From Janthinobacterium lividum (GTDB lineage Bacteria > Pseudomonadota > Gammaproteobacteria > Steroidobacterales > Steroidobacteraceae): DNA of 12,689 bases. The position numbers and the translations under genes are program-made. This document shows positions 405 to 12,689 of the stretch, piece by piece; positions within the stretch are counted from its first letter, which is position 1; the number at the start of each line of letters is the position of its first letter. The stretch lies in contig CALPVO020000031.1 of assembly GCA_943327025.2 (NCBI GenBank), positions 1 through 12,689 on the forward strand, read 5' to 3'. The notes under the pieces are model-generated. The model did not search any database. It was not told where the DNA came from and saw only the letters and a list, made by a program, of their open reading frames with translations.

Positions 405-1292
405 CTACCCCTGCACCGGCCGGGTGTGTCCGTCCAGCGTAGTGAGCGCGGTATAGAGCTCCGGGCGGCGGTCGCGGTAGACGCCCCAGTTGCGGCGGTA
501 GTCGCGCGTGGCGTCGAGGTCGAAGGTGTGCACCAGCACGCCTTCGCTGACGCGGTCCGCCACTTGCACCAGCGCCCCGGTGTGGTCCGCAATAAAACTG
601 GAGCCGTAGAAGGTAATACCGTTCTGCTGACCGTCTTCGCGGCCGATGCGGTTGCTGGCGACCAACGGCACCATGTTGGCCGCAGCATGGCCCTGCATCG
701 TGCGCGTCCAGTGGTCCTTGCTGTCGAGCGTTGGGTCTTGTGGCTCACTACCGATGGCCGTGGGGTACAGCAGCAGTTCGGCACCGTGCAAGGCCATGAC
801 GCGCGCCGGCTCCGGGAACCATTGGTCCCAGCACACCGCGGCGCCAATGCGCGCGAAGCGCGTGTCCCACACCTTGAAGCCCGTGTCGCCAGGAGCGAAG
901 TAGAACTTCTCGTGGTAACCCGGGCTCTCGGGAATGTGCGCCTTGCGGTAGTGCCCCAACACGGCGCCACCGGCATCCACCATCACCAGCGTGTTGTAGA
1001 GGCTGTTGCCGTCGCGCTCGTAAACCGACACCGGCAGCACCACCTGCAACTCCGCCGCCAGCCGGCACAGCAGGGCTAGCGCCGGGTTCTCCGCCAGCGG
1101 CACCGCCAGAGCGTGGTAGTCGTAGCGGTGGTCCACGCAGAAATACGGCGTCTCGAACAGTTCCTGCACCAGAATGACCTGCGCACCCTGCGCGGCAGCA
1201 GCACGAACGACGCGTTCGGCAGCCGCCAGATTGGCAGCACGGTCCCAGGAACAGGCGAACTGTGTGGCGGCGACAGTAAGGTGACGGGGCAT
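405..1292 (-). CDS. aguB: N-carbamoylputrescine amidase (nitrilase superfamily)
   Basis: This 295-residue cytoplasmic enzyme would hydrolyse N-carbamoylputrescine to putrescine, CO2 and ammonia, the last step of the agmatine route. The nitrilase triad is visible: Glu44 in VQELFE, Lys117 in HYRKAHIP and Cys154 in AVCWDQWFPE. The segments PTAIGSEPQDPTLDSKDHW and GHAAANMVPLVASNRIG are hallmarks of AguB rather than of beta-ureidopropionase or generic nitrilases. Length is usual for the family. I start at the ATG at 1292 because TGAGG lies 8 bases upstream and the protein then begins at the family N-terminus (PRHLTVAATQ). An in-frame ATG at 1322 has no ribosome site. The gene follows the regulator by 114 bases and precedes the exonuclease. 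The usual partner, agmatine deiminase (aguA), is not in the window. Beta-alanine synthase activity is a less likely alternative. Confidence 0.93.
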   Translation of the reverse strand: MPRHLTVAATQFACSWDRAANLAAAERVVRAAAAQGAQVILVQELFETPYFCVDHRYDYHALAVPLAENPALALLCRLAAELQVVLPVSVYERDGNSLYNTLVMVDAGGAVLGHYRKAHIPESPGYHEKFYFAPGDTGFKVWDTRFARIGAAVCWDQWFPEPARVMALHGAELLLYPTAIGSEPQDPTLDSKDHWTRTMQGHAAANMVPLVASNRIGREDGQQNGITFYGSSFIADHTGALVQVADRVSEGVLVHTFDLDATRDYRRNWGVYRDRRPELYTALTTLDGHTRPVQG

Positions 1293-1300
1293 GACAGGGG

Positions 1301-1305
1301 CCTCA
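1301..1305 (-). promoter_or_regulatory. Shine-Dalgarno deciding the aguB start
   Basis: TGAGG on the minus strand, 8 bases before the ATG at 1292. It favours this start over the in-frame ATG at 1322, which has no purine-rich site. Confidence 0.6.
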
Positions 1306-1376
1306 GGAAAAACTGGCGCCATGGTAACGGCTAGGGGCCACTAACGGAAAACCGACGTGCCAAAAGCGTTGGCGAC

Positions 1377-2133: not shown

Positions 2134-3477
2134 ATGAGCGCCAATCCCATCGAACTTGCCAAGCAGCCTCTGTCCCGTCAGGACATGGAGGCGCTGTGGA
2201 TGCCCTTCACCGCCAACCGCCAGTACAAGGCCGCCCCGCGCCTGCTGGCCAAAAGCAGCGGCATGCACTACTGGACCCAGGACGGCCGCGAGATTCTCGA
2301 CGGCGTCGCTGGCCTGTGGTGCGTGAATGCCGGGCATGGCCGGAAGGAAATCAGCGAAGCCGTCGCCGCGCAGATTGCCGAGATGGACTACGCGCCGCCG
2401 TTCCAGATGGGCCACCCACTCGGCTTCCAGGCCGCCAATGCGCTGGTGAAGCTCGCGCCGGAAGGCATGAACCACGCGTTCTTTGTGAACTCCGGCAGCG
2501 AGGCCGTGGACACGGCACTGAAGATTGCGCTGGCCTACCACCGCGTGCGCGGTGAAGGCACGCGTACCCGCCTCATCGGGCGCGAACGCGGCTACCACGG
2601 CGTGGGCTTCGGCGGCATCTCCGTCGGCGGCATGGTGAACAACCGCAAGTTCTATGGCGCGCAGTTACCTGGTGTGGACCACCTCCCACACACCTTCAAT
2701 CTGTCGGAAGCCGCGTTCAGCCGTGGCCTGCCGAAGTGGGGCGCGCATCTGGCGGATGAACTCGACCGCCTCGTCGCCCTGCACGATGCTTCAAACATCG
2801 CCGCCGTCATCGTCGAGCCCATTGCCGGCAGCACCGGCGTGGTGTTGCCGCCCGAGGGCTACCTGAAGCGTCTGCGCGAGGCCTGCGACCGTCACGGCAT
2901 CCTGCTCATTTTCGACGAAGTCATCACCGGCTTCGGTCGCACCGGCTCGCCGTTCGCTGCGCAGGAATTCGGCGTCACGCCGGACATCATCGTCTGTGCC
3001 AAGGGCCTTACGAACGGCGCGCTGCCCATGGGCGCGGTGATCGTGAAGCAGGGCATCTACGACGCCTTCATGCAGGGTCCGGAAGCGGCCATCGACCTGT
3101 TTCACGGCTACACCTACTCGGCGCACCCGGTAGCCTGCGCCGCGGCACTCGCCACGCTGCACATCTACGAGCGTGACGGCCTGCTGACGCGCGCCAAGGA
3201 AATGGCCCAGTACTGGGAAGACGGCGCGCATTCACTCAAGGGCCTGCCGGCAGTCATCGACATTCGCAACTACGGCCTCATCTGCGGCATCGAGCTGGCC
3301 CCCATCCCGGGCAAGCCCACGGCGCGGGCCTACGACGCCTTCCTCAAGTGCTTCGCGAAGGGCCAACTGGTGCGCACCACGGGCGACATCATCGCCATGT
3401 CGCCGCCGCTCATCATCGAGAAGTCGCACATCGACCAGCTGTTCGGCACGCTGCGCGAAGTGCTGCAGACGGTGTAA
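2134..3477 (+). CDS. Omega-amino acid (beta-alanine/putrescine):pyruvate aminotransferase, class III PLP enzyme
   Basis: A 447-residue fold-type I, class III aminotransferase transferring an omega-amino group to pyruvate. It is very similar along its length to Pseudomonas omega-amino acid:pyruvate aminotransferase (about 449 residues). Shared features include ALWMPFTANR near the N-terminus, GRERGYHGV, HDASNIAAVIVEP, the PLP-ring Asp261 in LIFDEVITGFGR, the Schiff-base Lys290 in CAKGLTNGALPMGAV, and HGYTYSAHPVACAA. AAGGA lies 7 bases before the ATG. Divergent from a PuuR-like regulator and near aguB, it could deaminate putrescine to 4-aminobutanal (SpuC-like role) or beta-alanine to malonate semialdehyde. 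The sequence alone does not decide between them, so no symbol is given. A terminator follows 72 bases after the stop. Confidence 0.93.
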   Translation: MSANPIELAKQPLSRQDMEALWMPFTANRQYKAAPRLLAKSSGMHYWTQDGREILDGVAGLWCVNAGHGRKEISEAVAAQIAEMDYAPPFQMGHPLGFQAANALVKLAPEGMNHAFFVNSGSEAVDTALKIALAYHRVRGEGTRTRLIGRERGYHGVGFGGISVGGMVNNRKFYGAQLPGVDHLPHTFNLSEAAFSRGLPKWGAHLADELDRLVALHDASNIAAVIVEPIAGSTGVVLPPEGYLKRLREACDRHGILLIFDEVITGFGRTGSPFAAQEFGVTPDIIVCAKGLTNGALPMGAVIVKQGIYDAFMQGPEAAIDLFHGYTYSAHPVACAAALATLHIYERDGLLTRAKEMAQYWEDGAHSLKGLPAVIDIRNYGLICGIELAPIPGKPTARAYDAFLKCFAKGQLVRTTGDIIAMSPPLIIEKSHIDQLFGTLREVLQTV

Positions 3478-3636: not shown

Positions 3637-4371
3637 TCAGTCCTTGGACCACGGGAACGTGGTGGCCAGCTGGAACAGGATGCGGTTTTCGTTGTTGAAC
3701 ACGCGGTCGTGGGTACGGGCAGCGGCATCCGTGCTCACCACCGAGTACTTCAACGAGGCAGTGACCGGACCAAACGCACGCGACACACCGAGGGTGTAGT
3801 CGTCGTATTCGCTGTTCACACCTTCCACGGCGTTCTTCCAGTAATCGCCACGCGAAAAGCCAACGTGCGCCGTGAGCGTGAAGCCGGCCGGCAGCTCATG
3901 GGCGTAGGCAGCCTCGAGGTAGTAGGCGGAGTCCCCGCTCTTGGCGTAGGTATCGCTATACCAGAGCTTGGTGCTCAGGCCCTTGTAGTTCAAGCCAACG
4001 TTGTACTCGGGGTAGTCGAAATCGCCGTCACCGTAGTAGGTGTAGTAAACGGCGTTGACCGTGAACGACAAATCGTCGTTGATGGCCTTCGTATAACCGG
4101 CATAGAGATCCACTTCGCGGTCTTCGCTCGCGTCCGGGCCATAGTCGATATTGGAGCCCCAGATACCACCGCTGAAGCCACTCTCCGTGACAAAGTCGAG
4201 CGACAACTGGATGGCGGGATCTTTGGCGGACTGCGAGATGCCACGGAAATCGTATTCGTTGGCAGCCGTGAGCGTGGCGGTGAGGTCCGAGGCAGCAGCC
4301 TGACCGGTAGCACCCAGCAGGGCGAACGCGACAGCGCCGGCAATGGCCGACTTACGAAGGGAAATCGACAT
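3637..4371 (-). CDS. TorF-family putative outer-membrane porin
   Basis: A 244-residue exported protein. Residues 1-27 are a signal peptide (Arg and Lys near the start, hydrophobic core AIAGAVAFALLGA, probable cleavage at QAAA-SD). The mature part opens with LTATLTAANEYDFRGISQS and ends with LATTFPWSKD, which matches the TorF/conserved hypothetical family TIGR02001 (PF09694), small beta-barrel proteins of the proteobacterial outer membrane. Alternating aromatic strands such as VNAVYYTYYGDG and YLEAAYAHELP support a barrel. The transported substrate is not established for the family. AGGAG lies 7 bases before the ATG and an extended -10 promoter sits just upstream, so the gene appears monocistronic. 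It converges on the aminotransferase and shares its terminator. Confidence 0.9.
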   Translation of the reverse strand: MSISLRKSAIAGAVAFALLGATGQAAASDLTATLTAANEYDFRGISQSAKDPAIQLSLDFVTESGFSGGIWGSNIDYGPDASEDREVDLYAGYTKAINDDLSFTVNAVYYTYYGDGDFDYPEYNVGLNYKGLSTKLWYSDTYAKSGDSAYYLEAAYAHELPAGFTLTAHVGFSRGDYWKNAVEGVNSEYDDYTLGVSRAFGPVTASLKYSVVSTDAAARTHDRVFNNENRILFQLATTFPWSKD

Positions 4372-4896: not shown

Positions 4897-6078
4897 ATGC
4901 CCAAGGCCCGTCACTCCGCCTGGCCAGTGCTCTTGGCTGCTTGGCTCGCCTTCCCCATGGCAGCGCTCGGGGAAGACGCCGCCTCCATCCTGCCGCCGAC
5001 CGCCACCGCGACGGGCGAGCAGCAGCCCAATGAAGGCCCTAACGATGAGCCACCCCACCACAACCACAGCCAGGTGGACCCAGGGCTGAATCTGTTCGGT
5101 TTCCTCACCGCGAACTACGACCAACTTGGCAGCGCCGCCACGGGGGAAAACCTTGGCAAGGCCGGCAAGTTGGAAGGCGCGTTGCTCGCGACTTATGGGC
5201 ATGGGCCCTTCCGCTTTCTGACAGAGGCGGTAGTCGGCGCCGACCATGCCGAAGTCGAACGGTTCCAGTTCGGCCTCCAACTCCGTCCAGGCACAGTCAT
5301 CTGGGTCGGACGGGTGCACCAGCCGAGCAGTTACTGGAATACCGAATTCCACCACGGCCAATATCTGCAAAACAGCATTACCCGCCCAGCCATCGAAAAC
5401 TGGGAAGACGAGGGTGGCGTTCTCACCCAGCATGTCGGTGGCATCTTGCTGGAAACAGAGCGTAGCTTGGCGAATGGCACGACCGTGCGCCTAGCCACCA
5501 GTGCCGGCTACGCACCCGCCATCGAATCCGGAACACTAGAGCCCTTCGACGTCATCCACTGGCATAACGGCGTGCGGCACCCTGCCTTCGCTCTGCGCAT
5601 CGATGTGCTGCCGGATGGTATCGGCGAGCAAGCCTTCGGCGTCATGAGTGGATTCAGCGGACTGCAGGCACGCGGGTCCGGCATAGAGAGCCTCGACCAT
5701 GTCGACCTGACCACCATCGGCCTCTACGGCGACGTCCGTGTAGGCGAGGCGCGCTGGCTCGGCTCCGTTTATCGCATACGAACCCGCTTCGACTACGACC
5801 AACATGTGGATGCCGAGTACGCTACTTCCTGGTTCTTGCACGGTGAATACCGCTTGCGCGAAGACTGGATGGGCTATGTGCGGCACGAGTCGACCCTAGG
5901 GACGGATGACAGCCGCTATTTCGCCACCTTCCCCGACTTCGTCAATGGACGAAGCGTGGTGGGCCTGCGGTATGAATCCGGCAGCAACCATGCTCTTAGC
6001 CTAGAAACCGGCAGCGCCACGTCCAACGGCGAACGCTACATGGAACTGCGCCTGCAATGGAGCGCGGTGTTTCACTGA
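4897..6078 (+). CDS. Predicted outer-membrane beta-barrel protein, unrecognised family
   Basis: A 393-residue exported protein I do not recognise. From ATG 4897 it has a good signal peptide: basic KARH, hydrophobic core WPVLLAAWLAFPMAA, likely cleavage after ALG. A Pro/Asn/His-rich linker with HHNHS follows, then LNLFGFLTANYD and many alternating strands (YGHGPFRFLTEAVVG, FQFGLQLRPGTVIWVGRV, YMELRLQWSAVFH), as in porin-like barrels. An in-frame ATG at 4831 gives a 415-residue form but puts 22 non-signal-like residues in front; neither start has a Shine-Dalgarno. It is first in an operon with a periplasmic binding domain, a sensor kinase and a receiver, and its stop overlaps the next start (TGATG). 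A role in ligand entry or capture for sensing is inferred from context. It contains HQPSSYWNTEFHHGQ, rich in His and aromatic residues. Confidence 0.75.
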   Translation: MPKARHSAWPVLLAAWLAFPMAALGEDAASILPPTATATGEQQPNEGPNDEPPHHNHSQVDPGLNLFGFLTANYDQLGSAATGENLGKAGKLEGALLATYGHGPFRFLTEAVVGADHAEVERFQFGLQLRPGTVIWVGRVHQPSSYWNTEFHHGQYLQNSITRPAIENWEDEGGVLTQHVGGILLETERSLANGTTVRLATSAGYAPAIESGTLEPFDVIHWHNGVRHPAFALRIDVLPDGIGEQAFGVMSGFSGLQARGSGIESLDHVDLTTIGLYGDVRVGEARWLGSVYRIRTRFDYDQHVDAEYATSWFLHGEYRLREDWMGYVRHESTLGTDDSRYFATFPDFVNGRSVVGLRYESGSNHALSLETGSATSNGERYMELRLQWSAVFH

Positions 6079-6503
6079 TGCGTCGGCTGCTTGCCCTCCT
6101 GCTTCTGCTGACCACGGTTACCGCCGACGCGCGGGACTTGGTGCTGGTCGTGCGCAGCGACAGTCCGGTGACGGAGATGGACTCTCTCACCGTACGCAAA
6201 CTATTCATGGGCTTCACCGTCACCGCCGGGAGCCAGCAACTCTATGCCGTTCGTCTGGTGGGCGACGACACTCTCGAAAGTGCCTTCCTGCAAAGCGTCA
6301 TCGGGATGTCGGCGGCGCAGTACGAGCGCCGCCTACTCCTCATGGCGGTCAAGCAGGGACGCGCACCCCCCACCGTCACCGACAGCCCTGCCCAAGTCAT
6401 CGGCACCATCCGTGAGGACCGCCGGGCGGTCGGCTGCTTATGGGCCGACCAGATGGCCGGGCGCAGCGACTTGCGTATCGTGAGGTTGTTATGGCGCGGC
6501 TGA
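6078..6503 (+). CDS. Small periplasmic phosphate-binding-protein-like domain protein
   Basis: A 141-residue protein. MRRLLALLLLLTTVTADA is a signal peptide, leaving about 123 mature residues. The pattern LVLVVRSDSPVTEMDSLTVR, then KLFMGFT, a central SAFLQSVIGMSAAQYERR and a late AVGCLWADQM resembles the short PstS-like (PBP-like) proteins annotated as phosphate ABC transporter substrate-binding in Vibrio and Shewanella. These are about half the length of true PstS and have no transporter nearby. I start at ATG 6078, which overlaps the previous stop as TGATG; an in-frame ATG 21 bases upstream lacks a ribosome site and spoils the signal peptide. It overlaps the kinase gene by 13 bases, so it is likely a periplasmic ligand sensor or partner of the kinase. 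The actual ligand is unknown. Confidence 0.78.
   Translation: MRRLLALLLLLTTVTADARDLVLVVRSDSPVTEMDSLTVRKLFMGFTVTAGSQQLYAVRLVGDDTLESAFLQSVIGMSAAQYERRLLLMAVKQGRAPPTVTDSPAQVIGTIREDRRAVGCLWADQMAGRSDLRIVRLLWRG
6481..6485 (+). promoter_or_regulatory. Shine-Dalgarno deciding the kinase start
   Basis: TGAGG 5 bases before the ATG at 6491. It supports that start over the in-frame ATG at 6440, which would extend 64 bases into the preceding gene and place polar residues before the first membrane segment. Confidence 0.6.
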
Positions 6504-7981
6504 CTGACACCCTCGGTGGACGCGTTTTGGTCGGCGTCCTCGCCGTCCACTTCCTACTCCTGCCGCCCCTGTTTTTCGGCCTGCTGAAGATCGTCGAAGA
6601 GGGCGAAGGCCGCGTCTTCATCAACGAAGTGGGTTCCTACGCCAACTTCATTGGCGATCAACTCGAGCGGGAAGGCGACAAGATGGACGCCAACGAACGC
6701 CAGAACGTACTGGATGGCATCGTGCTTTCCGGCCACGCCCTCTATGCGGAAATCGAGGGCGAGACCAAAACCGTCAGCCGTGCCGTCGAGAACGATGGTC
6801 TGAGCTTTCATGGCGATGACTTCGCTATCCGTTCCGGCAACGACGAGGTCTACTACCTGTCGAAATCGCTACGCATCGGTGGGCGCACCGAAACGCTACG
6901 CCTTGGTTTCGACGAACGTTCAGTTCTGGAAGCGGGAGAAAATGCCCGTATCCGCATCTGGTACGTACTAGCGGCCTATCTATTGGTTTCCACACTCGGC
7001 GCCGTGCTACTCGTCCGCCGCTTGACCCGTCCTTTGAACGAGCTACGCGAAGCGTCGCGAAGGGTATCCGGGGGAGCTTTCGACCAGCCTTTGGCGACCA
7101 GCAGTACCCTGCATGAAGTCCGTGAACTGGCGCAGGACCTCGAGTTGATGCGTGACCGCCTGGCCACTGCGAATATCCAACTACTGCGCGAGATTGCCGA
7201 ACGCGAATCCAGCGAACAAACGCGCTTGAAACTGGAGCAACAACTGCGCCAACAGCAAAAGCTGCGCGAACTAGGCACTTTGGCAGGTGGTATCGCCCAC
7301 GAATTCAACAACGTACTAGTGCCCATCCTCCTCTACACGGAATCGGCCATCGACGAGCTACCCGAAGACAGTCCCATCCGCGAGGATCTGCAGGCGGCAT
7401 ACCAGTCCGCGCAGCGGGCGCGAGCGGTGGTGCGGCAAATTCTCATGTTCGCCAGACATATGGATGATGGCGAACGCGAAACCATCGACCTGAGAACTGC
7501 CGTAGGCGATACCGTCGGCCTGTTACGGGCCCTGATGCCTGCGCAACTAGAGGTCGTTGAAGATTATGGCAGTTCGCCGCTCCCCATCGTGGGCAACGCA
7601 GCCTTGTTGGGACAGGTCATCATGAACCTCTGCACCAATGCCCGTCAGGCCATGCGCGAACGTGGCGGCACCCTGCTGGTACGCACTTGGGTAGGCCCAG
7701 GTCCCAACGGGCTCGAGCGGGCGAATCTCTCGGTCTCCGATGAAGGCCATGGCATGACTGCCGAGGTGGCGGCACGTATTTTTGAACCTTTCTTCACCAC
7801 GCGCCCGGTCGGTGAGGGAACAGGTCTCGGTTTACCCGTAGTTCACGGTATCATTGAGTCGTTACGGGGTACCATTACGGTGGAAAGCACCGCCGGGGTC
7901 GGCAGCACGTTCATCGTGCGCTTCCCCTTGGCAGAAGATTCTGCAGCGGCACCCCCGTCGCAGCAAGGAGCAGGAATATGA
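6491..7981 (+). CDS. Membrane-bound sensor histidine kinase (HAMP, HisKA, HATPase_c)
   Basis: A 496-residue inner-membrane kinase. Segment one (about 9-31) contains LVGVLAVHFLLLPPLFF. A periplasmic domain of about 120 residues (32-153) follows, which I do not recognise. Segment two (about 156-178) contains YVLAAYLLVSTLGAVLLV. A HAMP linker comes next (RRLTRPLNELREASRRVSGG), then a Gln/Glu/Arg-rich coiled coil. The phosphoacceptor is His270 in GGIAHEFNNVL. The ATPase domain shows the N box NLCTNARQAM (Asn383), G1 SDEGHGM, F box FEPFFTT and G2 GEGTGLGLPVVHG, so it looks catalytically complete. It overlaps the binding-protein gene by 13 bases and the receiver gene by 4 (ATGA). The likely partner is the adjacent receiver, and the stimulus may be relayed by the periplasmic and outer-membrane proteins upstream. 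Confidence 0.92.
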   Translation: MARLTDTLGGRVLVGVLAVHFLLLPPLFFGLLKIVEEGEGRVFINEVGSYANFIGDQLEREGDKMDANERQNVLDGIVLSGHALYAEIEGETKTVSRAVENDGLSFHGDDFAIRSGNDEVYYLSKSLRIGGRTETLRLGFDERSVLEAGENARIRIWYVLAAYLLVSTLGAVLLVRRLTRPLNELREASRRVSGGAFDQPLATSSTLHEVRELAQDLELMRDRLATANIQLLREIAERESSEQTRLKLEQQLRQQQKLRELGTLAGGIAHEFNNVLVPILLYTESAIDELPEDSPIREDLQAAYQSAQRARAVVRQILMFARHMDDGERETIDLRTAVGDTVGLLRALMPAQLEVVEDYGSSPLPIVGNAALLGQVIMNLCTNARQAMRERGGTLLVRTWVGPGPNGLERANLSVSDEGHGMTAEVAARIFEPFFTTRPVGEGTGLGLPVVHGIIESLRGTITVESTAGVGSTFIVRFPLAEDSAAAPPSQQGAGI

Positions 7982-8382
7982 GCCGCATTCTCATCATCGA
8001 CGACGAACCCAGCGTGCGCCGCGCCCTGCGACGCATCCTCGAGAAGTTCGGCCACGAGATTACGGAAGCCGGCGACGGAGCGGCAGGTGTGGCTGCCTGC
8101 GCCTTGAACGTACCCGATCTCATCATCACGGACATCATCATGCCGAAGATGAACGGCATCGATGCAGTGACCGCCATTCGGCAAGCCAATCCCGGAGTGC
8201 GTATTCTCGCCATTTCGGGTGGTGGCAATTTCGAGCCACAGGCCTATAAGCCGGAAGCGATCACCACCAGCGCGTATTTGGCAGCAGCCGAACGCTCTGG
8301 AGCAGACGCGGTCATGACCAAGCCCTTCGACCGCTCGCAGCTCATGGAAAAAGTCGACGCATTGCTGGCACGCAGCGCCTAA
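7978..8382 (+). CDS. Stand-alone response regulator (receiver domain only)
   Basis: A 134-residue CheY-like receiver with no output domain. The acidic pocket is Asp8-Asp9, the phosphoacceptor is Asp52 (LIITDIIMPKMNG), the switch Ser80 is in ILAISGGG, and Lys115 is in MTKPF. The loop and helix after Ser80 (NFEPQAYKPEAITTSAYLAA) is longer than in CheY, which may shape partner binding. AAGGAG lies 7 bases before the ATG, and ATGA overlaps the kinase stop, so kinase and receiver are almost certainly a pair. Without a DNA-binding or enzymatic domain it must act by protein contact or pass phosphate to another protein. The last codons fall inside a 23-base tandem duplication that covers the stop codon. 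Confidence 0.92.
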   Translation: MSRILIIDDEPSVRRALRRILEKFGHEITEAGDGAAGVAACALNVPDLIITDIIMPKMNGIDAVTAIRQANPGVRILAISGGGNFEPQAYKPEAITTSAYLAAAERSGADAVMTKPFDRSQLMEKVDALLARSA

Positions 8383-8414
8383 TCGGCTCAGGGTAAAGCG
8401 CCTAATCGGCTCAG
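8374..8414 (+). repeat. Tandem duplication, 18-base identical units, period 23
   Basis: AGCGCCTAATCGGCTCAG occurs at 8374-8391 and again at 8397-8414, separated by GGTAA. The first copy contains the last codons and the TAA stop of the receiver gene; the second is non-coding. This looks like a recent slippage duplication at the convergent junction of two operons. Confidence 0.9.
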
Positions 8415-8446: not shown

Positions 8447-9037
8447 TTATTCGCGGCGCCCCAACTGCAATACCGCCGGCTTGGCCGGCGCGGCAACTCT
8501 GCCCGGAGCTTGCTGCATCTCGGAGACGAACACGAAGCGCCAATCGCAATAGCAGTCAGCATCCTCGAAGGCGAGGTTCGCATCACTGAAGCCCTTCTGC
8601 TTCATCGGCTGCCCTTTGGCTTTGCTAGCCACCCCCGTGAGGCCGCCATCGCTGCCGCGAATGAGTTCCCACTCACCATCGGGAGTCATCGGGTCTCGGT
8701 AAGCCCGGCGCAGATGACGGACCACGACTGGACCGCGATTGTCATCTGTCAGGTCTTGCAGTGAGCGCGGGTAAGCGTGCAAGCCACCTGGAGCGCTGTG
8801 GTAGTAATGGCCGATAGCACGACGAATCTCGGCGCCCGTCCAGAGTAGTTGCTGCTCGCGGTCGCGTTGCCGCACTACCGACCACACGGTGCCAGCCGCA
8901 CCTAATGCCAGACCCAGCAAGGCCAAGGCGAACAGCAATCCTAGATAGGTAAACCCACGTTGCGCCCGCCGACCAACCAGCGGTTCCGGGCCCGGAAAGT
9001 GAGCCGCCGGGGCGAGCGGCGTTTCAGAGCTCGGCAT
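8447..9037 (-). CDS. Type II secretion/type IV pilus-like pseudopilin lacking Glu+5
   Basis: A 196-residue protein with a prepilin-type N-terminus. A long leader of 28 residues ends in RRAQRG, then FTYLGLLFALALLGLALG forms the hydrophobic helix. Position +5 after the predicted cut is Gly, not the Glu of most pilins, as in GspK-type tip subunits. The rest (IRRAIGHYYHSAPGG, PRSLQDLTDDNR, RHLRRAYRDPMT) resembles a beta/gammaproteobacterial family annotated simply as type II secretion system protein. I start at ATG 9037, which overlaps the previous gene by 14 bases. Upstream in-frame starts lie deep inside that gene. There is no strong ribosome site, so coupling to upstream translation is likely. 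It is the last gene of the operon and converges on the receiver gene. It may be a minor, tip-located pseudopilin. Confidence 0.82.
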   Translation of the reverse strand: MPSSETPLAPAAHFPGPEPLVGRRAQRGFTYLGLLFALALLGLALGAAGTVWSVVRQRDREQQLLWTGAEIRRAIGHYYHSAPGGLHAYPRSLQDLTDDNRGPVVVRHLRRAYRDPMTPDGEWELIRGSDGGLTGVASKAKGQPMKQKGFSDANLAFEDADCYCDWRFVFVSEMQQAPGRVAAPAKPAVLQLGRRE

Positions 9038-9431
9038 AAGGACGGCCGTCCGTCGCATTGCCTTCGGCACCACTATGGACATCGGTAATTCCCGGCGCAT
9101 CCGCGTCACCGCTCGCCGTGGTGGTCCAAGTGTCCACCGACTTGGTAATGGGGTCCTCGGGCAAGGCACGAAGGTAACGCTTCTCAACCAATTCGGGGAG
9201 GGCAGCAGGAAAATGACCCGTGTCGCCGGAATACTTGTCTATGGCGTCCCGCATCACAGCCAAATCCTGTCGCAACGTGGCCTCTTTTGCTCGCTCCAGA
9301 CTCAGGAAATAACGCGGCACCGCGATAGCCAACAGCGTCGCGATGATGGCCATGACGACCAGCAGTTCGATGAGCGTGAAACCTGAGGCGGAGAAACGGC
9401 GACTGGCAGGAATTTTCACGAAACTTACCAT
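9024..9431 (-). CDS. GspG-like major pseudopilin
   Basis: A 135-residue type II secretion pseudopilin. The leader ends in SASG at residue 17 and is followed by FTLIELLVVMAIIATLLAIAVP, with Glu at +5. Next come RQDLAVMRDAIDKYSGDTGHFP and the segment ELVEKRYLRALPEDPIT typical of GspG. The C-terminal half is Asp- and Gly-rich (DADAPGITDVHSG, then GNATDGRPY), as in the calcium-binding loop of GspG. It would be processed by a PilD-type peptidase and assembled into a periplasmic pseudopilus under the secretin. The ATG overlaps the previous stop as ATGGTAA; a GTG at 9419 is a possible alternative start. The cluster lacks a dedicated peptidase within the window. Confidence 0.9.
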   Translation of the reverse strand: MVSFVKIPASRRFSASGFTLIELLVVMAIIATLLAIAVPRYFLSLERAKEATLRQDLAVMRDAIDKYSGDTGHFPAALPELVEKRYLRALPEDPITKSVDTWTTTASGDADAPGITDVHSGAEGNATDGRPYAEL

Positions 9432-9907
9432 TGCGAGTAAGCCACACCATTCAGGCCAGTGCCCCGGTGCAGCGAATGAATGTCGTAGACGTCATCGCCA
9501 GGAACTGGCGCCGAGGCCGGGCTTGCATAGCTACGCAGACCCCACGTCTGGTCGGCAGGTGCAGAGTTATCTGGGAATAAAGGATCGCGCGGCAAACTGC
9601 GCAAGAAATAGATACGCTTGCCTTCCGGGTCCTTCGCGTCGGGCACACCGTCCACCAACACTTTCAGGTCTGGTGGATAACCGGAACTACCCGCCTCCAT
9701 CAGCACACGGCCAGCAACAGACGCATCATGATAGGCATCAATGGCGCCACGAATCTGCCGTAGAGCGAGCGTCAAGTCTTGCTCGCGCGTACGCTTGAAA
9801 GCCAGTTGGGCTACCGGCATCGCCGCTGTCGCCAACAGGGCCACGATGGCCACCGTAACGATGAGCTCGATGAGCGTGAAACCGCGGCTGGCGCGAGCCA
9901 TCTTCAC
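9425..9907 (-). CDS. Second GspG-like pseudopilin
   Basis: A 160-residue pseudopilin with a very short leader (MKMARASRG), then FTLIELIVTVAIVALLATAA with Glu at +5. It continues with EQDLTLALRQIRGAIDAYHD, a segment GYPPDLKVLVDGVPDAKDPE, then KRIYFLRSLPRDPLF and a C-terminus TGLNGVAYSQW, a layout shared with GspG-like proteins of beta- and gammaproteobacterial non-canonical secretion clusters. The GTG at 9907 overlaps the secretin stop as GTGA, repeating the junction style of the gene before; ATG at 9901 is a near-equal alternative. Compared with the next gene it has an extra segment before the conserved RDP motif, so the two are not simple duplicates and may play major and minor roles. Confidence 0.9.
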   Translation of the reverse strand: MKMARASRGFTLIELIVTVAIVALLATAAMPVAQLAFKRTREQDLTLALRQIRGAIDAYHDASVAGRVLMEAGSSGYPPDLKVLVDGVPDAKDPEGKRIYFLRSLPRDPLFPDNSAPADQTWGLRSYASPASAPVPGDDVYDIHSLHRGTGLNGVAYSQW

Positions 9908-12246
9908 TGACTGACAACCAACGTGATGGGACGCGGCGCGGCTACTGGCATCGGAACACCGTCCGCCCCGGCCAAGGCGAATTGCTGAACGGCAATCATG
10001 GTCGTCGGGCGGGCCGACAAGGCACGGAAATGCAGCGTCACCAAAGTGCCGTCGCCTTGGATACCCGTACTAGGGACATCGAATTGCGCACGGCCGGCGC
10101 GTTGGTTGATGACCGGGCGAAGACTGGCACGAGCGGCCTCCGGAACCATGGTCCCGGCATCCGCACTTGAAAGCTCGAGCACCGCCGGGTCGAAACGAAC
10201 CGCCGAACGAATATTCGCTACAGCGTCCTTGCTGGAGAGCAACAACGAGACGTCGAAGCTCTCACCCATCCTCACATTGCTCGGCGCTTCCCAACTCAGC
10301 GTTGGGCGTACCACCGCCGCAGCCTCTGCGCTCATCTCCGGCGCAGCTTCAGTCGTCGCAGCGGCCTCAGTGGACGGCGCAGCCGACTCCGCCGGAGGCG
10401 CAACAGGCGTCGTCGTTACCACGGCACCAGCCGCACTCACCGGAGCCGCGTAGCTACTTGAAGCAATGGGCGCGCTACGGACAGAACTTTCCGTGCCGTA
10501 CCAGAACTCTGCGTTTTCCGAGGAAGCACGGGGCTGTGCGCGGATGATGCGTGGCGTAATGGAGAGGACAATTTCCGTCTTCTCACCATCGTTCTTTTTG
10601 CTGCCGAACAGTCGCCCAATAATCGGCATGTCACCTAGGCCAGGAATACGGTCGGCCGTCGTACGTTCCGCAGAGTTAATCAGGCCTGCCAGAATTTGCG
10701 TCTCGCCATCTTTCAGGCGCAGTAGCGTCGAGGCGTTGCGGGTACCAATCTGGTAAGCCAACGTGCCGGACTGGCCCGCCGTGACTTCCTTGATGATGGT
10801 GCTGACTTCGAGGTTGACCTTGATGGCCACATCGTTGTCCATGTACACCGTAGGTTCCACGTCGAGGCTCAGGCCAACGTCCACGTACTGCACGCTACCC
10901 GTTACCACCGGCTGCGAAGTGGTCGGGGTGACCGTATTCGTGATGACCGGGACGCGTTGACCGATGAGAATTTTGGCCTTTTCATGGTTGCGGGCGCGAA
11001 TGCGCGGGCTCGCCAGAATATTGCCGCTGGTCAGCGTGCGCTTCATGTCGAGCGTCAGCGAGGTATTGCTCACCTTGAGCGTATTCTCGTTCTGGCCCTT
11101 GAAGTCACCCAGCACCATGCTGGTGGCATCAGCGCCCAGTGCAGTCGGCGAGATGCTCACCTGTTCCGGGTAACGCAGGCCTAACTGCTGCAGGCGGCTA
11201 CGGGTAATTTCCAGCACCTCCACTTCCATCATCACTTCCGCTTCCGGCACGTCTACAGAAGCGATAAGCCGTTCGGCCATGCGCAGCACCTCAGGGGTGT
11301 CACGCATCACTACGGCCGAAGCACGCTCGTCAACAAAGAGGGTCTTGGCATTCAAAACCGTCTTCAGCATCTCGCTGGCTTTCTTCGGGTCGGTGTTGGT
11401 CAGGTAGAAAGTGCGGACTAGCTGATCTTGGTATTCGCGCTGCTTAACGGCACTATTCGGGTAGATGAGAACCATGTTCTCCGCAAGCACCTGGCGAGCG
11501 AGCTGGTTCTGCCCGAGCACGAGATCGATAGCGGATTCCACCGGCACGTTCTGGACGAAGATAGTCGTGCGGCCGTCGTTCTTCACTTCGCGGTCGAAGA
11601 TGAAGTTGATGCCGGTCTGACGGGCGAGTACCTCGAATACCATCTTGGTATTCGCCTCACGGAACTGCAGGGACACCGGACGGTTGTCACGGGTTTTCAG
11701 GCGCGGCGTCACCGTACGCGGGCCGCGGTCGGTGTCGATACGGGCACGTAGCGCGTTCGCGTCGCTGTTACCCGGGTTTTCGGACAGCACACGCCCCAGA
11801 CGGGTTTCTGCCTCCTCGACACGGCCCTGCTGCATTTCACGCTTGGCCTGATCGACAGCTTCGGCATGGCGCTGGTCGCGAGCCACCAGCTCTATGCCAC
11901 GCTGTGCGCGGTCGTTGCCCGGAGAGATGGAAAGCACGCGCTTGTAGGTGGCTTCAGCATCGGCGTAGGCCGCGGCCGCCCGCAAACGGTCTGCCTGGGC
12001 AACCAGCAACTGCGTGGCTTCTTCCTTGCGCCCCTGCAATTCGAGTCGGTAGGTGGTATTGGCAGGCTCTGCCTTGACGGCCTGCTCGAGCTTGCGAATG
12101 CCGGACTCGTACTGGCCGGCCTCTACTTCGCGCAGGCCCTCATTGTGGAGGCGACTGCTGGCGCAAGCGGCTAGCAAGAAGGCTGTACCAGCGACCACCG
12201 TCAGGCGACGCAGGACTGGGAGGGAAAGAGGAATGCGAACGTTCAC
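9904..12246 (-). CDS. Lipoprotein secretin (GspD/PilQ-like) with TPR and cohesin-like domains
   Basis: A 780-residue outer-membrane secretin. The signal peptide ends in a lipobox LLAAC (Cys28), and Ala at +2 fits outer-membrane sorting. TPR-like helices span about 35-170. A secretin N0-type region (about 188-260, VSLQFREANTKMVFEVLARQ) and an N1-type domain (about 275-335) follow. The secretin core spans about 335-570, with VPVITNTVTPT and the signature IPGLGDMPIIGRLFG. A low-complexity Ala/Pro/Thr linker (about 585-650) leads to a C-terminal cohesin-like domain (about 650-780, VRMGESFDVSLLLSS, VRFDPAVLELS). The GTG start at 12246 is chosen because it overlaps the previous stop as GTGA and has GGGAG 6 bases upstream; an ATG at 12270 would add 8 residues. 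It should form the export channel of the system encoded here. Confidence 0.93.
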   Translation of the reverse strand: MNVRIPLSLPVLRRLTVVAGTAFLLAACASSRLHNEGLREVEAGQYESGIRKLEQAVKAEPANTTYRLELQGRKEEATQLLVAQADRLRAAAAYADAEATYKRVLSISPGNDRAQRGIELVARDQRHAEAVDQAKREMQQGRVEEAETRLGRVLSENPGNSDANALRARIDTDRGPRTVTPRLKTRDNRPVSLQFREANTKMVFEVLARQTGINFIFDREVKNDGRTTIFVQNVPVESAIDLVLGQNQLARQVLAENMVLIYPNSAVKQREYQDQLVRTFYLTNTDPKKASEMLKTVLNAKTLFVDERASAVVMRDTPEVLRMAERLIASVDVPEAEVMMEVEVLEITRSRLQQLGLRYPEQVSISPTALGADATSMVLGDFKGQNENTLKVSNTSLTLDMKRTLTSGNILASPRIRARNHEKAKILIGQRVPVITNTVTPTTSQPVVTGSVQYVDVGLSLDVEPTVYMDNDVAIKVNLEVSTIIKEVTAGQSGTLAYQIGTRNASTLLRLKDGETQILAGLINSAERTTADRIPGLGDMPIIGRLFGSKKNDGEKTEIVLSITPRIIRAQPRASSENAEFWYGTESSVRSAPIASSSYAAPVSAAGAVVTTTPVAPPAESAAPSTEAAATTEAAPEMSAEAAAVVRPTLSWEAPSNVRMGESFDVSLLLSSKDAVANIRSAVRFDPAVLELSSADAGTMVPEAARASLRPVINQRAGRAQFDVPSTGIQGDGTLVTLHFRALSARPTTMIAVQQFALAGADGVPMPVAAPRPITLVVSQ

Positions 12247-12689
12247 TGGGGGCTCCCGACAGACAGCCATTGGTCCTGCTGCAGCGGCAGGTAGGTCAGT
12301 TGCAACTGGCCGCGCGACGCATTGCCGACGGCATAAGTATTTTCAAGCGTGTCGCCAGGGCGAACGTCAAAGACGCGGTCGCCACGGACGAGAAAATAAA
12401 CCGGCTTGTCCCCGGACTTTACATAACTTCCAAGGAAGGTGTACGGCAAAGGTGGTGCCGTCGGCACCACCGCTGCTGGTGGCGGTGGCGGTGGTGGCGG
12501 TGGCGGCGCGACATACCAGGAGTGACTGGAGAAGAGGTCGTTGCCGACTTTGGCCGCCGCACGGGTAGCGAAGTTCACTCCCTCTCGGCTGGCAAGAGGA
12601 GCACTACCGGCCTTGGCAAACGGACGGCCGACGGGTTCAACCACCGCCGACTCTTGGGGCGCCGCAAACCAGAGAACCGAAAACAACAG
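12243..12689 (-). CDS. GspC/PilP-like inner-membrane assembly protein, 5' end beyond window
   Basis: The last 148 codons of a gene entering from the right edge. The frame stays open to the edge and begins inside a hydrophobic stretch (LLFSVLWFAA), so the true start and most of an N-terminal membrane anchor are missing; the TTG at 12686 is not a credible start. A periplasmic linker with ten consecutive prolines follows, then a compact domain of about 70 residues (PYTFLGSYV, KPVYFLVRGDRVFDVRPGD, TYAVGNASRGQLQLTYLPL) resembling the homology region of GspC or PilP. These proteins link the inner-membrane platform to the secretin, which fits the next gene. Its stop overlaps the secretin start by 2 bases (GTGA). 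Family assignment rests on domain layout and context. Confidence 0.78.
   Translation of the reverse strand: MLFSVLWFAAPQESAVVEPVGRPFAKAGSAPLASREGVNFATRAAAKVGNDLFSSHSWYVAPPPPPPPPPPAAVVPTAPPLPYTFLGSYVKSGDKPVYFLVRGDRVFDVRPGDTLENTYAVGNASRGQLQLTYLPLQQDQWLSVGSPQ
12253..12257 (-). promoter_or_regulatory. Shine-Dalgarno deciding the secretin GTG start
   Basis: GGGAG on the minus strand, 6 bases before GTG 12246. The start then overlaps the upstream TGA as GTGA, and the lipoprotein signal peptide has a normal length of 27 residues. It is preferred to ATG at 12270. Confidence 0.6.
12477..12506 (-). repeat. Proline-codon repeat (ten CCN codons)
   Basis: Thirty bases of alternating CCA and CCG codons encode ten prolines in the periplasmic linker of the GspC/PilP-like protein. 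Such a run would form a stiff extended spacer and is the kind of sequence that needs elongation factor P for efficient translation. The GGTGGC-like repetition is also prone to length change by slippage. Confidence 0.85.

Follow-up and report, generated by a model that had tools for sequence, protein, structure and literature searches.

How might a cell sense a solute that has just crossed its outer membrane? This question is raised by four overlapping genes in a 12,689-nucleotide stretch (the window; contig CALPVO020000031.1) of a draft genome of Janthinobacterium lividum (2.38 Mb, 351 contigs, 75% complete). Open reading frame (ORF) coordinates place at 4897-8382 on the forward strand, in this order, genes for a porin (the barrel), a small protein related to part of a periplasmic binding protein (PBP; hereafter mini-PBP), a sensor kinase and a receiver, with overlaps of 1, 13 and 4 bases between successive genes. 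This is the arrangement that an earlier note on the sequence had described, proposing that the products relay a signal from the outer membrane to the cytoplasm. The best reading of the data presented here, which we hold with about even confidence, is that the operon encodes a porin-fed trans-envelope sensing module. The porin would pass a particular small solute by way of a histidine-bearing inward loop, and the single-lobe mini-PBP would serve as a periplasmic adaptor that touches the sensor domain of the kinase and reports to it the solute or the state of the porin. With the solute as the presumed signal and control presumed to run inward, the kinase would then phosphorylate the lone receiver, which would act on its target by protein contact or as a step in a phosphorelay.

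The barrel is present in 10 of 98 related genomes, the window's own included. Five of the other nine have barrel, mini-PBP, kinase and receiver in order (two in the same genus, one in each of two further genera of the family and one in another family), with the kinase of L016 apparently split over two frames; in the remaining four, barrel and mini-PBP are followed by a hybrid kinase (L019), a chemoreceptor (L020, L021) or the contig end (L022). We also scanned the genome_contigs collection with a pattern that contained W..HHG, keeping loci similar to the window barrel; the 66 loci obtained are therefore selected for the W..HHG stretch. Duplicates (L052, L058, L126, L127, L128 and L131) were dropped before the receiver, output-change, correlation, overlap and motif counts given here and below. 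Besides the window, 27 distinct loci have barrel, mini-PBP and sensor-domain kinase in order; 26 were found by the barrel search, so that the barrel is there by choice, and one (L118) by its mini-PBP. The receiver comes next in 24 of these 27, while L042 and L047 reach the contig end and L051 has it upstream instead. At 25 further distinct loci the sensor domain is joined to a GGDEF output (Pfam: GGDEF 25/25, EAL 22/25). Ten loci were classed as hybrid kinase, nine of them from Methylomonas or Methylocaldum and the tenth (L119) broken; L028 is cut off. According to Pfam, L059 combines a hybrid kinase carrying Hpt with a receiver-PAS-sigma-54 regulator, and the distant L078 has a nucleotide cyclase.

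The gene order, which had been put forward as the point to check between genera, is kept across genera, families and orders, and the gene set is not a chance one. Lone receivers and kinases are common, which favours chance, or mere local clustering, as the reason for an ordinary two-component pair beside a porin, and the neighbouring genes do differ between genera. The conservation counts already contradict this explanation: the order persists across families and orders, and barrel and mini-PBP also stand side by side in some loci of other phyla (e.g. L075, L078 and L087). We regard it as very improbable. The relay proposed earlier is supported in part; the kinase-receiver pair is only one of several outputs.

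We then drew 369 genomes from the class and read neighbours by coordinates. Five barrel, ten mini-PBP and 12 sensor candidates were scored per genome, and the class counts are lower bounds because only these best few were scored. Profiles matched the mini-PBP in 80 genomes, the sensor domain in 36 (42 matches) and the barrel in 34 (45 rows). Each of the 20 barrel rows with E < 1e-60 directly adjoins a same-strand mini-PBP match, and 18 of them also have a sensor match. We examined 78 mini-PBP loci, the best stretch per genome (the other two of the 80 being the window's genome and G002). A barrel-like ORF adjoins the mini-PBP in 60 of these by a strict rule and in eight more by profile (68/78), compared with 3/27 for control genes; Pfam matches among the 60 are Porin_4 (17), OMP_b-brl (4) and BBP2 (1). 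A same-strand transducer lies in reach, which does not mean adjacent, at 44 of the 78 loci and at 18 of the 19 with a window-type barrel. These counts make porin plus mini-PBP the most constant unit, with a transducer that is usual, near-universal in the window's branch and not obligatory in the wider family. As many as nine mini-PBP matches fall in a single genome, G107.

Several results weigh against a sensing module. No transducer was found in reach at 20 of the 78 mini-PBP loci, and at 14 only on the opposite strand; the scan covered ~3.5 kb, with GGDEF detected by letter motif and the kinase and chemoreceptor domains each by similarity to a single query, so the counts of loci with no transducer are upper bounds. 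The earlier note had taken barrels and binding proteins that occur widely without the kinase pair as telling against its relay: loci with no transducer in reach do make up part of the wider family but only 1/19 of those with the window barrel type. About 15 of the 25 weaker barrel rows, some of which are pieces of one gene, have no adjoining mini-PBP match (~10 have one). The same is true of 19 of the 42 sensor matches (23 have one). One of the 19 sits where a contig begins; among the others, nine have matches stronger than 1e-13 and the rest weaker ones. Three of 64 mini-PBP/sensor loci lack a barrel match (L121, L122 and L134), and two of these (L121, L122) consist of a mini-PBP and a sensor-GGDEF protein with no porin-like gene upstream. 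The lone lobe predicted for the mini-PBP may not bind a ligand. Finally, in distance partial correlations over 25 loci, taking out the kinase, receiver and barrel distances leaves no excess for mini-PBP/sensor (0.13, compared with 0.33 for mini-PBP/barrel and 0.49 for sensor/kinase); therefore, co-evolution does not single out a contact between mini-PBP and sensor. At the porin/mini-PBP pairs of L183, L184, L187 and L192-L195, an opposite-strand kinase ~2.6-3.5 kb upstream is shared, and in L187 it stands beside a sigma-54 response regulator (Pfam).

The main rival, which we think somewhat unlikely, is that porin and mini-PBP form an uptake or pore-gating pair, with the mini-PBP as a lid or accessory, and that the kinase senses directly and is merely co-transcribed as the regulator of the pair. 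The greater constancy of the barrel than of the transducer beside the mini-PBP (68 against 44 of the 78 loci) speaks for it, as do the higher mini-PBP/barrel correlation and the tandem mini-PBP/porin arrays with no transducer found nearby in L138 and L139. Some sensor proteins also lack the pair (L219, L222, L226). In L222 and L226 the GTP cyclohydrolase gene folE2 lies directly upstream of the sensor gene, and L063 has the same neighbour (Pfam) but with the porin/mini-PBP pair in between; therefore, the pair seems to be gained or lost as a whole at these loci. A mere co-transcribed regulator fits less well with the same-strand transducer at nearly all loci with a window-type barrel, with outputs that vary (kinase, hybrid kinase, GGDEF) behind a constant set of sensor, mini-PBP and barrel, and with L121 and L122, which retain mini-PBP and sensor in the absence of a porin. 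In a tree of barrel and mini-PBP, the 28 kinase loci (window included) group in a single clade (support 99). Frequent swapping of outputs within the near family was looked for and not found: there are three changes of class among 60 rows, the least possible being two, in a tree that also left out L028 (output cut off) and L121, L122 and L134 (no barrel match).

On the cytoplasmic side, the kinase and receiver motifs that had been noticed earlier were borne out by Pfam domains. The kinase has two hydrophobic stretches starting near residues 6 and 154, followed by HAMP, HisKA with its phospho-acceptor histidine and HATPase_c, with intact motifs (AHEFNN at 269, NLCTNA at 379, DEGHGM at 417). The receiver (Response_reg) has the acidic pocket, phospho-acceptor aspartate and lysine (DDE at 8, TDI at 51, ISGGG at 79, TKPF at 114). 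The NCBIfam model nearest to the catalytic half of the kinase is VirA-like, with a score of 232.7 bits that falls far short of the cut-off of 647. The sensor domain, which the first reading of the sequence had not recognised, is claimed by no Pfam model in the window member, and PDB sequence profiles gave no match for it. Among 43 sensor members there are weak Cache matches (two dCache_1 and two sCache_3_2, best E 0.0045), none of them in the window member. This N-terminal domain is common to the kinase, hybrid-kinase and GGDEF outputs encoded behind the mini-PBP.

The porin was modelled with 16 predicted strands, in agreement with the outer-membrane barrel proposed before, and with low confidence in the stretch before strand 1. 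Its nearest fold matches are OprO/OprP, with general porins almost level. The long stretch 142-178 probably folds inward, judging from its place between strands 5 and 6, which would give the predicted architecture of a 16-stranded porin with an inward loop at this position. Histidines 141, 152, 153 and 179, R163-P164 and E170 are each invariant in 42/42 barrel sequences, in an alignment built from separate searches for relatives, apart from the W..HHG pattern scan. These residues suggest a specific site and not a general pore. By sequence the barrel falls outside the OprO/OprP family, with no match to PF07396 (Porin_O_P) at E ≤ 1; the distant barrels of L019 and L020 have weak PF07396 matches below the cut-off. 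Pfam and NCBIfam gave no family at cut-off for the window barrel, and PDB sequence profiles no match. Histidines are only mildly enriched in the 40 residues before strand 1 (mean 2.3, compared with ~1.6 expected from their overall share; two or more in 22/42 barrels).

The mini-PBP has 141 residues including its signal peptide, and its model (mean predicted local distance difference test, pLDDT, 91.0) superimposes on PstS-type chains at 2.1-2.2 A over 109-110 residues. The PBP-like protein of the earlier note therefore has the predicted PstS-type fold but covers about one lobe of it, and is not a two-lobe binding protein; ~110 residues of PstS-type chains are covered, which we read as one lobe where PstS and PBP_like_2 have two around a ligand cleft. 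A protein of this size makes the classic clamshell mode of capturing and presenting a ligand doubtful. It matched no Pfam family at E ≤ 1, hence neither PF12849 (PBP_like_2) nor a YfiR-like model, and nothing over cut-off in NCBIfam; PDB sequence profiles gave two weak matches (best E 0.091). The absence of accompanying transporter genes was upheld: none of the window proteins scanned (10 with Pfam, 8 with NCBIfam) was recognised as part of an ATP-binding cassette (ABC) transporter, and the window contains no SGGQ motif. Among relatives, an ABC letter motif occurred in 1/63 stretches, in an insensitive scan that failed to pick up the ABC ATPase with ABC_tran_Xtn that lies downstream in L025. 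A full-length PstS gene followed by a BPD_transp_1 permease gene is encoded elsewhere in the same genome, so the mini-PBP is not the uptake protein of that transporter. In L016 (7519-7959) the mini-PBP N-terminus reads SRRQFFG, a twin-arginine-like export signal unlike those of the other aligned mini-PBPs. A full-length PBP_like_2 (PstS-type) gene lies at 2209-3237 of L021, near its porin/mini-PBP/chemoreceptor locus. No plasmid match was obtained for the mini-PBP region of L161.

At 57 of 61 loci, window included, the mini-PBP frame offers a possible start (ATG, GTG or TTG) that gives an overlap of 1 or 4 bases with the end of the barrel gene. The barrels aligned share 23-77% identity with that of the window. 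By our own estimate a TGA stop in a fitting frame gives such an overlap about 1 time in 7, and since the loci are related the count is not a probability. The conserved start/stop overlap hints at coupled synthesis of the two proteins without demonstrating it. A 22-base overlap seen in relatives was dismissed as an artefact, created by the barrel's C-terminal Q-W-S-A codons, which generate ATG or GTG in another frame. The tight pairing and overlapping genes would also suit a conformational relay that needs no free ligand, in which an occupied or plugged porin would draw in or let go of the mini-PBP, much as YfiR is sequestered by YfiB, and the mini-PBP in turn would act on the sensor as an inhibitor or activator. 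The outer-membrane, periplasmic and inner-membrane parts correspond to those of YfiBNR as far as the accessible text on that system goes. We consider such a relay improbable, as Pfam recognised no extra domain in the porin, the stretch before strand 1 is modelled at low confidence, and L121 and L122 have no porin.

If the sensing module does respond to a solute, two kinds of ligand come into question. The predicted likenesses to PstS and OprP hint at an oxyanion; phosphate itself is not claimed, the likenesses being of fold alone. The invariant histidines and the SCO1-like genes nearby hint at copper or another metal. Such genes occur in the stretches of 5/27 kinase and 1/25 GGDEF loci and beside three of the four distant loci, where a SCO1/SenC-like gene lies directly upstream in L019, L020 and L022 (the L021 stretch ends at the barrel). 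A SCO1-like gene lies close to the barrel in L025, L027 and L029. The gene that comes after it matches cytochrome c in L025 and L027, and in L025 that gene has a weak binding-protein match as well.

In the titles and abstract beginnings searched, we found no description of a porin and a single-lobe PstS-like unit tied to transducers. The nearest whole system there is YfiBNR of Pseudomonas aeruginosa, a tripartite envelope signal system with an outer-membrane, a small periplasmic and an inner-membrane cyclic di-GMP (c-di-GMP) part (PMC4655355, PMC4887326). It shares with our loci the tripartite layout and, with the GGDEF relatives, the c-di-GMP transducer. However, in the accessible text YfiB is a lipoprotein and not a 16-strand porin, and the mini-PBP differs in its PstS-like fold without a Pfam match. 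In NspS-MbaA of Vibrio cholerae, according to abstract beginnings, the signal of a periplasmic binding protein passes by way of a membrane protein with control over c-di-GMP. Those abstract beginnings name no porin partner, and the mini-PBP, with about one PstS-fold lobe, is not a recognised polyamine binder. PstS chains have ~240-320 residues, so that roughly one lobe is missing from the mini-PBP. LuxP-LuxQ, TorT-TorS and ChvE-VirA each combine a full-size binding protein with a sensor kinase; we know of no dedicated porin in these systems. The parts are of known kinds, and their combination is new within the titles and abstract beginnings covered.

Porins are usually treated as passive pores. 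The conserved pair, often connected to different signalling proteins, suggests a widespread route by which outside chemical signals are passed inward. A more far-reaching and only tentative proposal is a phylum-spanning class of receptors, in which a constant histidine-eyelet porin and a single-lobe PstS-like adaptor would be coupled to most of the main kinds of output: kinase-receiver pairs, a phosphorelay with a sigma-54 regulator, c-di-GMP enzymes, chemoreceptors and a nucleotide cyclase. On this view the porin would itself belong to the receptor, beyond serving as a passive pore, with a transition metal or an oxyanion as a possible ligand. If the pair is indeed a receptor front end, a defined entry point at the outer membrane would be available for a widespread set of bacterial sensors, among them c-di-GMP and chemotaxis proteins whose input is unknown, the four invariant porin histidines would be a testable ligand site, and a use would be found for the lone lobe of a binding protein.

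Table 1. Genes of the porin operon and two regions within them, in window coordinates
Feature	Position	Strand	Basis or remark
Porin, 16-stranded (predicted), outer-membrane, signal peptide	4897..6078	+	alternative start 4831
Porin residues 141-179, between strands 5 and 6	5317..5433	+	42/42 sequences; predicted strand limits
Mini-PBP, PstS-type (predicted), about one lobe, periplasmic, signal peptide	6078..6503	+	pLDDT 91.0; fold matches
Sensor histidine kinase: transmembrane segment, periplasmic sensor domain, transmembrane segment, HAMP, HisKA, HATPase_c	6491..7981	+	Pfam, motifs
Periplasmic sensor domain, common to GGDEF proteins and hybrid kinases	6599..6955	+	alignments, Pfam scan of 43 members
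Lone receiver, 134 residues, no output domain	7978..8382	+	Pfam, motifs

The coordinates of the operon are given in Table 1. An in-frame ATG is a possible earlier start of the barrel, and the ORF of the close relative in L014 has a similar MKLCP... opening. A locus filed under the actinomycete Candidatus Planktophila lacus (L023) carries the porin operon with the gene order of L014, from the window's genus, and is probably a misnamed bin. Upstream, the window encodes an N-carbamoylputrescine amidase (405-1322, reverse strand) and an AptA-like omega-aminotransferase (2134-3477, forward strand; both NCBIfam), with an ORF resembling a helix-turn-helix-cupin regulator between them, which makes a role in polyamine metabolism possible. 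A putative porin of the TorF family (gcw_chp, TIGR02001; NCBIfam) lies at 3637-4371 on the reverse strand, divergent from the operon. A 17-base direct repeat (8375-8414, with copies at 8375 and 8398) is found at and after the stop codon of the receiver. Convergent to the operon, 8447-12270 on the reverse strand encodes a secretin with TPR and cohesin-like domains and three pseudopilin-like genes (Pfam); a pilin-like motif is present in the stretches of 6 of the 27 related kinase loci.

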